Origin: Catenulispora pinistramenti
GTDB taxonomy: Bacteria > Actinomycetota > Actinomycetes > Streptomycetales > Catenulisporaceae
Length of the DNA: 38,171 nt
Reading direction: 5' to 3'
Assembly: GCF_018274385.1 (NCBI RefSeq)
Contig: NZ_JAAFYZ010000089.1
Coordinates: forward strand, 1-38,171
Shown: positions 16,223 to 20,782 of the stretch, in pieces
Layout: each line of letters begins with the position of its first letter
Numbering within the stretch: the first letter of the stretch is position 1
Notes under the pieces: generated by a model
Databases searched by the model: none
Seen by the model: only the letters and a program-made list of their open reading frames with translations
What the model was told of the DNA's origin: nothing
Made by a program: the position numbers and the translations under genes

Positions 16223-18823
16223 TCAGCGCTTCCAGAACGGTCGGCGGGCAGGCGGCGCGAACGATTCCAGGAACGTCACAGTGCTCTGCCACCGCTCGGC
16301 GACCGGCTTGTCGGCGGAGCTCAGGGTACTGAGGAGTTCGCTGGCAGTGGCCTGGTGCTCGGCGGGCAAGCCCGGGATCAGTTCTGTCAGCTTCGCGGTG
16401 AATTCGAGCAGCAGTGCCTCTTGCCCGTCGGTCGCGGCGGCGGTGAAGCGGGGGAGCCATTCCGTTGCGAAAGTACGGAGATCAGCCGCGGGCGGCACGG
16501 TCTTCCTCTCGGCGACCGGTGCCGGTGTCGGCGCCGGTGCGGGCACCGAGGACTTGAGGAAGTCCGGGATTTCGAGGTCTTCCTCCGCCGAGGGCGGCAT
16601 CGGCCCGCGGGACGGCGTAGGCGCACCAGGAGACGGCGGCGGCGGAGCCAGCCGAAAGAGAGCGCTGCCGCCGGGCTGGACTGACAAGGTACTGAACGAG
16701 TACGCCTCCGGTTCCATGGCGTCTCCCACGGCGTCTTCCATGACAGTGCCCATGTATACCGCGGCCTTGCGCATCGGCCTGGGCACCGCCGCGGGCACCG
16801 CGGGCGCGCTCCAGCCAGCGGGGAGGTCGACCGGCTGCGTGACCTGCTTGAGCGGGCTGCCCGCGGCCACCACCCGGGTGTCGATCGCGACGAACGCCGT
16901 GAAGCGGGACAGCACGCTGTGACCCACCGACGTCGCGACGATCGCCCGCTCGATGTCCGGCTGTCCTTGAGACGCCGATACGTACCGGTCCTCCAGATCG
17001 CGGATGCGGCCACGGGCCCAGAACTGCGCGAGTCCGGCGTCCGCGGTCTCGAGGGCCGGCACGCGCCGGGTCCACGGCGAGCCGTCGGCGGCTTCGCCGG
17101 TGATGACGATGCCGGCCCCGATGTCCGCCAATGCCGTCCCCGGCGATGCCGTGGCTCCGTGGAACCGCCCGGCCACCACCAGCGGCGCGCCGACGAACAA
17201 GTCCGCCAGCCGGGTCGGGGTGATCGAGTCCTGATCCAGTTCCAGCCCACTGTTCCCGGCCAGGCGCAGGCCGGTCACCAGCGGTGTGCCGATGCGCCGG
17301 TGGATGGCGTCCATCGCTTCGTCGAGACGGTCCTCGGACTCCACCAGTTCGCAGTGTCCGCCGCCGAAGCCCGCCAACCGTCGCAGGAAGCCGGCGTTGA
17401 CCGCGCTGTCGATCCCGACGGTGTGGACCCGCAGGTGCGTGAGCTGCGGGGCGAGGGCCGACAGCAGCGAGTCCTCGTCGCCGATCTGGCCGTCGGTCAC
17501 CAGAACCAGGACCTTGTCTCGTTCCGGGTCGTCGCCGCCCAGGAGCTTGACCGCCTGGCTCAACGCCGGCCGCATCTCCGTTCCGCCGCGCGCTTCGACG
17601 GACGCCAGGTGCTGCACAGCGCGGAAGCGGTGCCGGTCTGTGGCCGAGGAAAGAACGTCGGACGGGAGGTCGTCGGGATAGGTGATCGAGTGGTCGAACG
17701 TCAGCACCGCGAACCGGTCGGTGGCGGTCAGCGAGTCGACGATGCGGGCCGCTGCTCGGCGCGCCGCCGTCATCTTCCAGCCGCCCATGCTGCCGGACCG
17801 GTCCAGGACCAGCGCCACGTCTCGGGGACGCGTCGCGCCGGTCAGCTCCGGCGGCAGGACGGTCAGCAGGAAGGTGCCGGTGCGCGTCGCGCTGTCCGAC
17901 TTCTCGGTCTCCTTCTCCTTCTCCTTCTCCTTCTCGTTTTCGTTTTCGTTTTCGTTCTCGTCTTCGTCCCACGCCACGGCCAGGGATGTCGCCGCCGCCG
18001 AACCCCCGTACGCCAAGCGCAGGATGAAGTCGCGGTCCGCCCGGGCCCCGGGGTCGAGCCGGACGACGTAACGCTCGCCTGATTCCTCGGCCGATCCCTC
18101 CTCCGTCACGCTCACCCCGTGCAGGCTCGATGTCAGCCCGGCCAGCGGCAGTCCCGCCGGGTCCACCGCGACCTCGATCGACAGCCGGATCGGATTCGGG
18201 AAGCCGGGCAACAGAATGGGCGGGCTGATCCGGGACGCGTCGGGCACTTGGGAGGTGTCGACGGCGGTCCCGCTGCCCACTTGCTCGCCCGGGAGCGCGG
18301 CGCCGGGGATGTAGCGGGGCGCCACTACCAGCGGGAAGCGAAACGTGGCCTGTCCGTCTTCATATGGCAGACGCCCTGAGAGCGTTGTCCGGATGACCAC
18401 GTGCTCGCCGGGCATGATGTTGCCGACGCGCAGAGTGAAGACCCCGGGGCGCTCCTCCTCGGCGATCGACGCGCGCTGGCCGGCTTCGATCGCCGCGCTG
18501 TAGTCGGCGCGCGCCGACTCTCGCTCCTTCACCACGCCCTCGACCACGCGGTCGGCGGCTTCCATCCGCAGCCGGGTCACCGCCGCGCGGTCCGGCAGCG
18601 GGAAGATGTACGTGGCCTCCAGCGGGACGTCATAGGGGTTGCGGAAGCCCTGCGCCAGCTCGGTGCGCACGGCGAGGCCGGCCACCGAGGAGCGGACCTC
18701 GATCAGCTCCAGCGGCAGGTTGCCGCGCTCGGTGCGCAGCGCGCCGAGGCCGCCTTCCGGCGCGCGGCGCGGCGTTTCCTCGAAGATCTCGACGACCTCG
18801 ATGACACCGATGCGAACGGTCAT
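16223..18823 (-). CDS. VIT and von Willebrand factor A domain protein
   Basis: An 866-aa protein. The VIT domain (about residues 25-150: NPYDVPLEATYIFPLP, AIEAGQRASIAEEERPGVFTL in pieces) precedes a vWA domain (about 335-510) with intact MIDAS D341-R-S343-G-S345 and a GGTEMRPAL threonine loop. Between them is a charged linker of alternating Glu-Asn and Glu-Lys (residues 286-308), encoded by a hexanucleotide-like repeat. The tail is Pro/Ala-rich and contains EEDLEIPDFLK (747-757), which looks like the C-terminal peptide of FtsZ, then a helical C-terminal domain. No signal peptide is visible. GAGGGGG precedes the ATG. It lies 43 bp downstream of a MerR-family gene on the same strand, so the two form an operon. 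Function unknown; family members act in metal-dependent protein binding. Confidence 0.88.
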   Translation of the reverse strand: MTVRIGVIEVVEIFEETPRRAPEGGLGALRTERGNLPLELIEVRSSVAGLAVRTELAQGFRNPYDVPLEATYIFPLPDRAAVTRLRMEAADRVVEGVVKERESARADYSAAIEAGQRASIAEEERPGVFTLRVGNIMPGEHVVIRTTLSGRLPYEDGQATFRFPLVVAPRYIPGAALPGEQVGSGTAVDTSQVPDASRISPPILLPGFPNPIRLSIEVAVDPAGLPLAGLTSSLHGVSVTEEGSAEESGERYVVRLDPGARADRDFILRLAYGGSAAATSLAVAWDEDENENENENEKEKEKEKETEKSDSATRTGTFLLTVLPPELTGATRPRDVALVLDRSGSMGGWKMTAARRAAARIVDSLTATDRFAVLTFDHSITYPDDLPSDVLSSATDRHRFRAVQHLASVEARGGTEMRPALSQAVKLLGGDDPERDKVLVLVTDGQIGDEDSLLSALAPQLTHLRVHTVGIDSAVNAGFLRRLAGFGGGHCELVESEDRLDEAMDAIHRRIGTPLVTGLRLAGNSGLELDQDSITPTRLADLFVGAPLVVAGRFHGATASPGTALADIGAGIVITGEAADGSPWTRRVPALETADAGLAQFWARGRIRDLEDRYVSASQGQPDIERAIVATSVGHSVLSRFTAFVAIDTRVVAAGSPLKQVTQPVDLPAGWSAPAVPAAVPRPMRKAAVYMGTVMEDAVGDAMEPEAYSFSTLSVQPGGSALFRLAPPPPSPGAPTPSRGPMPPSAEEDLEIPDFLKSSVPAPAPTPAPVAERKTVPPAADLRTFATEWLPRFTAAATDGQEALLLEFTAKLTELIPGLPAEHQATASELLSTLSSADKPVAERWQSTVTFLESFAPPARRPFWKR
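17901..17962. repeat. In-frame hexanucleotide microsatellite in the VIT/vWA gene
   Basis: On the plus strand about four CTTCTC units are followed by about four TTTTCG units. On the coding strand they encode (EK)n and (EN)n. Repeat-number change would keep the frame and only alter linker length. Confidence 0.85.
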
Positions 18824-18866: not shown

Positions 18867-19508
18867 TCAGGCCTCGGACAGGCCGAGCCGGTTCAGCAGG
18901 TCCAGCAGTGGTTGTGCCGCTTCGGTGATCGCGGCGCGGGCGGCGGCGTCCGGGGTGCGGCCGGGTGGCAGGAGCAGGGTGATGTCGGTGGTCAGGCGGA
19001 TGCCGGTGATGAGTGGGGCGGTGGTGTCGGGCCCGGCCTCGATTTCGGTGTCGGCCTCGGTGTCGGCGGTGATGGTGGTGAATGGCTCGGCTGCGGGTGG
19101 CGTGATCCAGAAGCGGGAGCGGGCGGGGGAGGTCGCCGGTCCCGCTGCATCCGGGTCCGCCGGGGCGATCAAGGCGTCCAGATCCGCCGGCAACTCCGCG
19201 ATCTGCTCGACCACGGACGCTTCCGCGCCGAGCAGCCGTTCCTGTACCGCCGCCACTGTCAGCCCACTGGCTTGCAGCCGCTTGATCGCGACCAGCTGGG
19301 CCAGGTGGGAGCGGCCGTAGAGCGCGGTGCGTCCGCGCATGGCCGCCGGCCGGTCCAGCAGGCCGATCGAGGTGTACCAGCGGATCGTCCGCACGTCGGG
19401 CACCTCCCGGATACGGCCGTTGGGCTGGGTCGGCGCCCCGGCGGCCAGCGCCGCCGCGGCCAGGCGGGCCAGGCGGTCGATGGTCCAGGGGGCCGGGGCT
19501 TCGGTCAT
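18867..19508 (-). CDS. MerR-family transcriptional regulator
   Basis: About 213 aa from the ATG at 19508. The DNA-binding region reads WTIDRLARLAAAAL, then DVRTIRWYTSIGLLDRP and RTALYGRSHLAQLVAIKRLQASGLTVAAVQERLLG, which is MerR-type. A short insertion (AGAPTQPNGRIREVP) sits between the first helix and the recognition unit. A variable Ala/Thr/Asp-rich linker leads to a C-terminal domain (GIRLTTDITLLLPPGRTPDAA, AAQPLLDLLNRLGL) with no Cys cluster, so it is not a metal sensor of the classical kind. In-frame ATGs at 19517 and 19520 are alternatives, but they abut the palindrome. It leads an operon with the VIT/vWA gene and is divergent from a carboxypeptidase gene. Confidence 0.85.
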   Translation of the reverse strand: MTEAPAPWTIDRLARLAAAALAAGAPTQPNGRIREVPDVRTIRWYTSIGLLDRPAAMRGRTALYGRSHLAQLVAIKRLQASGLTVAAVQERLLGAEASVVEQIAELPADLDALIAPADPDAAGPATSPARSRFWITPPAAEPFTTITADTEADTEIEAGPDTTAPLITGIRLTTDITLLLPPGRTPDAAARAAITEAAQPLLDLLNRLGLSEA

Positions 19509-19519
19509 GCGGCTCATCA

Positions 19520-19543
19520 TGACACTGTCATATGACAGTGTCA
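19520..19543. promoter_or_regulatory. Perfect 24-bp palindrome, probable MerR operator
   Basis: TGACACTGTCAT is followed directly by its exact reverse complement. On the minus strand, TTGACA at the palindrome edge is followed by 19 bp and TGATGA, the long spacer typical of MerR-controlled promoters. It may control both the MerR–vWA operon and the divergent carboxypeptidase gene, whose GTG lies 51 bp away. Confidence 0.8.
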
Positions 19544-19594: not shown

Positions 19595-20782
19595 GTGGGG
19601 CTGAGCTCTCGGTTGAGTGCGCTTGTGCTGGTCGTGGCCGTGGCGGGGCTGATCCCCGATCCGGTGTCGGCGACGGTGCCGGTGACGGTGACGGTGACGG
19701 TGCCGGTGACAGTGTCGGATCCGGTGCCGGGGCCGCCGGCCGTGGACGTCGCCTCATACCTGGTCGTGGACTACGACACCGGCCAGATCCTGGCCGAGAA
19801 GGATCCGCACCGTGCGCTCTACCCGGCCAGCACTCTCAAGATCCTGACAGCCGACACCCTCATCCCGCGCCTGGACCCGGACCTGGAGGTCACACCGAAG
19901 GCCGCGGACTTCGCCGCCGAGCCGGACGGCAGCGTGGTCGGCATGACGGCGGGGGTCACCTACAGCGTCGCCGAACTGTGGCGCGCGACGTTCGTCGAGT
20001 CGGCCAACGACGCCGTCGCCGAACTGGCCCACCTCTCCGGCGGCCTCGACGCGACCACCGCGGCCATGGAGCGAGAGGCACGCAGTCTCGGTGCCCGGGA
20101 CACCACGGACATCATCGACGCCGACGGCTACGACCAGGACGGCCAGACCACCAGCGCCTACGACCTCGCACTGTTCGCCCGCGCGGGCCTGCGCCTGCCG
20201 GCCTTCCGCGCCTACTGCGACCTGAAGCACACGACGTTCCCCGGCCCCGACGGCAGCACGCTGACCCTCACCGACCACGACCCGCTGATCCTCGGCTACC
20301 CGGGCATGATCGGCATCAAGAGCGGCCTGACGACGAAAGCCGGGCACACCTACGTCGGCGCCGCGACCCGCGACGGCCACACGATCATCGAGACGCTGAT
20401 GCTCGGCGGCCCGGACATCTCCGACCAGGCGGCGGACCTGATGGACTGGGCGTTCGCGGCTGATGGGAAGGTGACGCCGGTCGCGCTGCTCGGCGGGAGT
20501 CAGGCGCCGCCGACATCTGCGCCGACGACGCCCACACCCACGCCGACGCCAGCGCAGACACCGACACCGACACCCACGCCCACACCGACGCCAACGATTG
20601 CGCCGACGCCCGCCCCGAAACCCATGCTGCCGTCGAGGCCGGTCACGCGCATCGAGGCGATAGCCCGACCGCGCTCGACCGCGCCGCCCTGGTCAGGCGC
20701 GGCCTGGCTCGGAGCGGTCGCCGCACTGGCAGCGGTGGCGGTGCCGGTGGGCACGCGGGGGATCCATCGGCGCCGCACCTAG
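19595..20782 (+). CDS. D-alanyl-D-alanine carboxypeptidase, membrane-anchored
   Basis: A 395-aa penicillin-binding serine peptidase of the DacA/S11 class, trimming the terminal D-Ala of peptidoglycan stems. Catalytic motifs are in order: S79-T-L-K82 (SxxK), S136-A-N138 (SxN) and K242-S-G244 (KTG-box variant). An N-terminal signal peptide (LSALVLVVAVAGL) precedes a low-complexity Val-Thr stretch encoded by a GACGGT-like repeat. After the catalytic domain come a Pro-Thr repeat spacer (about residues 308-345) and a C-terminal membrane segment followed by RRR, so the enzyme is held outside the membrane. The GTG start at 19595 lies about 10 nt after TGATAC, a possible -10. Divergent from the MerR operon. 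Confidence 0.9.
   Translation: MGLSSRLSALVLVVAVAGLIPDPVSATVPVTVTVTVPVTVSDPVPGPPAVDVASYLVVDYDTGQILAEKDPHRALYPASTLKILTADTLIPRLDPDLEVTPKAADFAAEPDGSVVGMTAGVTYSVAELWRATFVESANDAVAELAHLSGGLDATTAAMEREARSLGARDTTDIIDADGYDQDGQTTSAYDLALFARAGLRLPAFRAYCDLKHTTFPGPDGSTLTLTDHDPLILGYPGMIGIKSGLTTKAGHTYVGAATRDGHTIIETLMLGGPDISDQAADLMDWAFAADGKVTPVALLGGSQAPPTSAPTTPTPTPTPAQTPTPTPTPTPTPTIAPTPAPKPMLPSRPVTRIEAIARPRSTAPPWSGAAWLGAVAALAAVAVPVGTRGIHRRRT

Follow-up and report, generated by a model that had tools for sequence, protein, structure and literature searches.

The C-terminal tail of a VIT/vWA protein encoded by Catenulispora pinistramenti contains two short peptides that resemble, respectively, the C-terminal end of FtsZ and the N-terminus of SepF, and this tail, which is predicted to be disordered, may dock the protein to the division machinery. 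Judging from sequence comparisons and structure predictions, we regard such a lineage-specific docking, to SepF via the FtsZ-like peptide and to the membrane via the SepF-like peptide, as tentative, falling just short of an even call. The gene lies in a 38,171-nucleotide stretch of contig NZ_JAAFYZ010000089.1 (hereafter the window), to which all positions given below refer. The first-pass annotation of this DNA had noticed the FtsZ-like peptide and proposed that the protein mimics FtsZ to reach its partners or to compete with it. That interpretation, as a whole, is partly supported: the mimic idea is plausible, has gained a further clue from the sequence of this tail, and would apply to one lineage. 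The occurrence of a SepF-like stretch beside the FtsZ-like peptide in one tail is new in the present analysis.

A VIT/vWA protein with a disordered tail

The gene occupies positions 16223–18823 of the minus strand, stop included, and its translation yields a protein of 866 aa in which Pfam identifies, on the same strand, (i) a VIT domain (residues 41–147, positions 18383–18703; PF08487, 5.3e-31) and (ii) a vWA domain (residues 335–502, positions 17318–17821; PF00092, 7.3e-16). Residues D341, S343, S345, T415 and D444 of the vWA domain, which we take to be its metal site, are invariant across the 13 aligned sequences. The best fold match of the protein is inter-alpha-inhibitor heavy chain 1 (6fpy). 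Inter-alpha-trypsin-inhibitor heavy chains, like other VIT/vWA proteins, combine the same VIT and vWA domains; in comparison with these, the Catenulispora protein adds a disordered tail, a four-helix domain and an FWKR end. It also differs in that no signal peptide is apparent by eye at its N-terminus, so that a cytosolic location of the tail is expected. NCBIfam TIGR03788 (marine sortase target protein) aligns with residues 42–676 (E 3.5e-118), but the score of 395.7 bits is under the curated cut-off of 551.65. Neither the Tubulin/FtsZ GTPase domain (PF00091) nor the SepF core domain (PF04472) matches the protein at E ≤ 0.001; it is a member of the VIT/vWA family and neither an FtsZ nor a SepF.

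In an AlphaFold2 model computed from the 13-row alignment, the Pro-rich tail (residues 651–778, positions 16490–16873, minus strand) displays pLDDT values below 50 and is predicted to be disordered. It is followed by a C-terminal domain of four helices (residues 782–853, positions 16265–16480, minus strand), which reaches a mean pLDDT of 82.7 when folded alone and for which neither Pfam (E ≤ 0.01) nor the PDB (E ≤ 0.001) yields a match. The chain ends with PFWKR (positions 16226–16240, minus strand). Note that FWKR is shared without exception by the 12 orthologues of one alignment, is also present in Nonomuraea and is absent from L041, L043 and L040; FWK also ends a Planctomycetales relative (L042), whose tail differs and displays, ahead of this end, a stretch that looks protein-kinase-like by eye. 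Altogether, the retention of FWKR extends far beyond that of the FtsZ-like peptide.

A peptide resembling the C-terminal end of FtsZ

Translation of the minus strand places EEDLEIPDFLK at residues 747–757 (positions 16553–16585), exactly as first annotated, and the location of this peptide in a disordered, Pro-rich tail is borne out by the AlphaFold2 model, so that its burial in a folded segment is rejected by the predicted disorder. The claimed likeness to an FtsZ tail also stands, the peptide being nearly identical to the end of the FtsZ found, as a single match, in the same genome (G000): the FtsZ end reads PSAADELDIPDFLK and the VIT/vWA tail PSAEEDLEIPDFLK. An acidic residue followed by L-[DE]-[IV]-P-x-F-L, within a disordered tail, characterises both the FtsZ C-terminal peptide (FtsZCTD) bound by SepF and Glp in C. 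glutamicum and the VIT/vWA peptide; the latter, in contrast, is internal, 109 residues before the end of a protein in which no FtsZ domain is matched.

The specificity of this resemblance was assessed with an FtsZ profile, i.e. the mean BLOSUM62 score against three FtsZ tails (two of the family and one of C. glutamicum). EEDLEIPDFLK scores 40.3, 100,000 shuffled versions of the 195 C-terminal residues reach at most 33.0, and the maximum is 24.0 in 216 background ORFs (84,637 residues) drawn from 20 stretches of one congener with a crude coding filter. Shuffles of other tails (5,000 per tail) reach up to 35.0 (G011), and the folded vWA part itself scores 32.0 in G011 and 28.0 in G007 and G013. 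At the DNA level, the pattern [DE][IVM]P[DE]F[LF] followed by a mostly polar residue has 21 matches in 14 family genomes, its reversed control having none. These matches comprise 12 FtsZ (assigned by position), three VIT/vWA proteins (G000, G006 and G004) and six other stretches; in our judgement from codon-position GC, five of these six look non-coding, and one, HTH-like by eye, resembles a coding frame. In G000, the pattern matches ftsZ and the VIT/vWA gene only. In this genome, the bare core [IVM]PDFL has nine matches and its reverse eight, so that the core by itself is not special; the full peptide EEDLEIPDFLK resembles FtsZ beyond chance.

A further protein of the same genome contains FtsZ-tail-like stretches. 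Encoded on a 4.2-kb contig (C333; L022:861-2636), it comprises 591 aa, is largely disordered-looking, has no Pfam match and a weak phrog_32665 match, and includes EELVVPDFLR and DGLTVPDFIV, with FtsZ profile scores of 31.3 and 27.3.

Distribution and retention of the FtsZ-like peptide

The alignment comprises 13 orthologue sequences, and a p value was obtained for each tail from 5,000 shuffles. Among the eight loci of a contig scan, L039 and L041 were aligned, L037 and L038 are duplicates of G010 and G008, respectively, and the full frame of L044 was not found; L040, L042 and L043 lie outside the alignment and were scored separately with Nonomuraea L127. The FtsZ-like peptide is detected at p < 0.001 in four of the 13 tails: it is identical in G000 and G006, and reads DMAALPDFLK in G005 (FtsZ profile 26.7) and FDFEVPEFLR in G004, which belongs to another genus (27.0). 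The nine remaining aligned tails have p values of 0.10 or more, and the four tails scored separately display neither the FtsZ-like peptide (profile scores ≤ 17.3) nor the SepF-like one described below (≤ 13.0). The G005 and G004 tails weakly support the case because folded parts of relatives score as high; since these two cases fall within the chance range of folded segments, the strong case reduces to one lineage, the sister pair G000/G006.

Conservation of the motif in close orthologues, with which the first-pass annotation proposed to check its reading, thus holds for the closest one (91% identical) and fails for six of the nine genus orthologues, three of these six being 74–75% identical; the peptide is present in three of the nine. 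A family-wide FtsZ-like motif is rejected, most orthologues lacking it. On the tree, the distribution of the peptide amounts to three changes, two of which are forced by well-supported branches, and displays no clustering beyond that of shuffled labels, 225 of 500 label shuffles giving a number as low. As for the VIT/vWA gene itself, no match was found in the tenth genus genome (G012) or in G001 and G002, other members of the family, and an order-wide sample of 41 genomes (E ≤ 1e-40) contains relatives in 11, all of the same family, and in none of the 27 genomes outside it.

Comparison of G000 with G006, the two closest genomes among those compared, delineates a conserved island around the peptide, PSAEEDLEIPDFLKSS (residues 744–759, positions 16547–16594, minus strand), in which no codon is replaced and five changes are silent. 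The flanks (residues 691–741 and 760–785) display 23 replaced codons and six silent ones, plus gaps and insertions. The difference between island and flanks gives a Fisher p of 0.0017, which is indicative only, the island having been picked after viewing.

A second peptide resembling the SepF N-terminus

The same tail contains, at residues 681–693 (positions 16745–16783, minus strand), a second island, PRPMRKAAVYMGT, which resembles the N-terminus, MAGMMRRAAVYLGL, of the single SepF match found in the genome (MAGMMRRAAVYLGLTDE). PMRKAAVYMG in the tail corresponds to MMRRAAVYLG in SepF, and seven of nine residues are identical between MRKAAVYMG, the SepF-N-like peptide proper (residues 684–692), and MRRAAVYLG. 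PMC7118173 reports that SepF of C. glutamicum binds membranes through its first 14 residues. The membrane-binding peptide of SepF is N-terminal, whereas its VIT/vWA counterpart is internal, at residues 681–693 of 866.

With a profile built from two SepF N-termini, the island scores 32.5; the highest score in 100,000 shuffles of the same tail is 30.0, the maximum in the 216 background ORFs is 20.5, and shuffles of the G008 tail (5,000) reach up to 34.5. The SepF-like peptide is present, and identical, in G000 and G006 and in none of the other 11 aligned tails, the lowest p value of which is 0.048; it is missing in seven of the nine genus orthologues. Both peptides occur together in two of the 17 scored tails, G000 and G006, which represent a single lineage. 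Between these two genomes, the SepF-like island is intact and its flanks are heavily replaced; taken alone, it gives a codon-test p of 0.23, with a single silent change, i.e. too few changes. Like the first island, it was picked after viewing.

The SepF-N core pattern has 28 matches in 10 genus genomes, and its reversed control none. These are nine SepF, the two VIT/vWA proteins (G000 and G006), 10 matches in a carboxylase-like protein (QAAVYLGG) and seven in a glycosyltransferase-like protein, the last two being named by eye. In the glycosyltransferase-like protein, which is present in seven of the 10 genus genomes, KAAVYLGR lies near the C-terminus beside a hydrophobic stretch. Thus the bare core is not unique to SepF and the VIT/vWA gene; MR[RK] directly before AAVY is found only in the nine SepF and the two VIT/vWA proteins. 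Regarding conformation, a helical moment as high as that of the peptide arises in 39% of shuffles (59% for the peptide of SepF itself), and AlphaFold2 shows no helix in the SepF-like island.

Candidate receptors

According to an excerpt of PMC7118173, the landing pad generally used by division proteins is the C-terminal peptide of FtsZ, and actinobacteria lack FtsA and ZipA as well as most known FtsZ regulators, SepF excepted. FtsA and ZipA, cited initially as possible partners along with SepF, are not expected here, both being missing in actinobacteria according to that excerpt. PMC7118173 also reports that C. glutamicum SepF binds the FtsZ C-terminal peptide at about 15 µM and that changing K125 and F131 abolishes this binding (these residue numbers are those of PMC7118173, the numbering being taken from construct 63–152). 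Our reading of an alignment with 6sat indicates that SepF of the genome under study has R at the K125 position and F at the FtsZ-pocket position F131. Besides SepF, Glp of C. glutamicum was crystallised with the FtsZ peptide DDLDVPSFLQ (excerpt of PMC10522489), which aligns with EDLEIPDFLK. Given the SepF pocket residues and the Glp binding in C. glutamicum, this genome very probably encodes a receptor that can accommodate EDLEIPDFLK.

A docking proposal and its alternatives

From these resemblances we infer a possible binding partner, membrane contact, location and effect of the tail. The FtsZ-like peptide (residues 747–757) would occupy the receptor to which the C-terminal end of FtsZ normally binds, SepF being the most probable candidate, and the SepF-N-like peptide (residues 684–692) would touch the membrane, like the N-terminus of SepF itself. 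Together, they would put the VIT/vWA module at the SepF-coated membrane, where it would be a client or a competitor of FtsZ. If true, this would mean that the receptor itself, besides FtsZ, can be targeted by a landing-pad-bearing protein of the cell, and it would offer an initial clue to this type of bacterial VIT/vWA protein. Among the literature matches listed, there is no functional study of such proteins, no FtsZ-tail mimic of this kind and no link between VIT/vWA proteins and division.

Acidic-hydrophobic stretches turn over fast in Pro/Ala-rich linkers, and the likenesses to FtsZ and SepF could be two coincidences. The patchy distribution on the tree, with its three changes and a clustering no better than that of shuffled labels, is consistent with such an explanation, as are the similar counts of the bare [IVM]PDFL core and its reverse and the FtsZ profile scores of 31–32 recorded in unrelated places (the L022 protein and the vWA part of G011). 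However, chance would have to account for the presence, within a single tail, of two distinct division-type peptides whose scores were not attained in 100,000 shuffles of it, for the retention of residues 744–759 with silent changes only, and for a DNA pattern that, in this genome, picks out ftsZ and the VIT/vWA gene only; we consider it rather unlikely.

Alternatively, the islands could be functional and serve another partner, e.g. as two segments, one basic and membrane-touching, the other acidic and hydrophobic, that contact the VIT/vWA module, a chaperone or some other protein, the likeness to FtsZ and SepF being secondary. The conservation of both islands between G000 and G006 would fit this, and the presence of KAAVYLG beside a hydrophobic stretch in the glycosyltransferase-like protein suggests that the string may be generally membrane-friendly; the close match to the FtsZ and SepF of the same genome, beyond a generic pattern, argues against it. 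In our view it is distinctly unlikely. A recent recombination, by which pieces of ftsZ and sepF would have been copied into the VIT/vWA gene, has only the peptide similarity in its favour and is highly improbable: by eye, four of nine codons are the same over MRKAAVYMG/MRRAAVYLG, and two of the six codons for the common stretch IPDFLK show silent differences from ftsZ. These codon differences led us to disfavour it.

Neighbouring genes and a shared palindrome

Directly upstream of the VIT/vWA gene and in the same direction lies a gene for a MerR-type regulator (positions 18867–19535, minus strand, start codon uncertain; PF13411, 7.8e-10). Of 14 loci compared, 12 retain this MerR–VIT/vWA adjacency, among them records from Actinomadura, Mycobacterium and Nonomuraea; in the two loci without this neighbour (L037 and L135), the contig ends at this point. 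Beyond it, a D-Ala-D-Ala carboxypeptidase gene (Peptidase_S11 by Pfam; positions 19595–20782, plus strand) is transcribed divergently. The promoter region that the VIT/vWA gene was initially said to share with this D,D-carboxypeptidase therefore has to be qualified: the carboxypeptidase is indeed the divergent neighbour in the six genus loci spanning that stretch, but the MerR gene lies between. Because of this interposition, and because the carboxypeptidase neighbour is genus-limited (found in none of the six loci outside the genus), the connection of the VIT/vWA gene with the cell wall is indirect, and the link of its product to the wall is weak.

Between the MerR–VIT/vWA genes and the divergent carboxypeptidase gene lies a perfect 24-bp palindrome, TGACACTGTCATATGACAGTGTCA (positions 19520–19543, no strand), possibly the operator of the MerR-type regulator. 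The docking proposal could be extended accordingly into a bolder scenario, in which a VIT/vWA adaptor of one actinomycete lineage has acquired, within a single disordered linker, counterparts of both the FtsZ tail and the SepF membrane peptide and, as an endogenous double mimic, attaches to membrane-located SepF in competition with FtsZ, and in which its level is set by a MerR regulator, the operator of which also faces the D,D-carboxypeptidase gene, so that septation is tied to wall remodelling; such a scenario seems unlikely to us. Among the 12 loci scanned for the palindrome, it is not fully recovered in L039, L043 and L127, has two changes in L041 (a Mycobacterium-labelled MAG) and one in L132, and is identical in the seven others, which belong to two genera.
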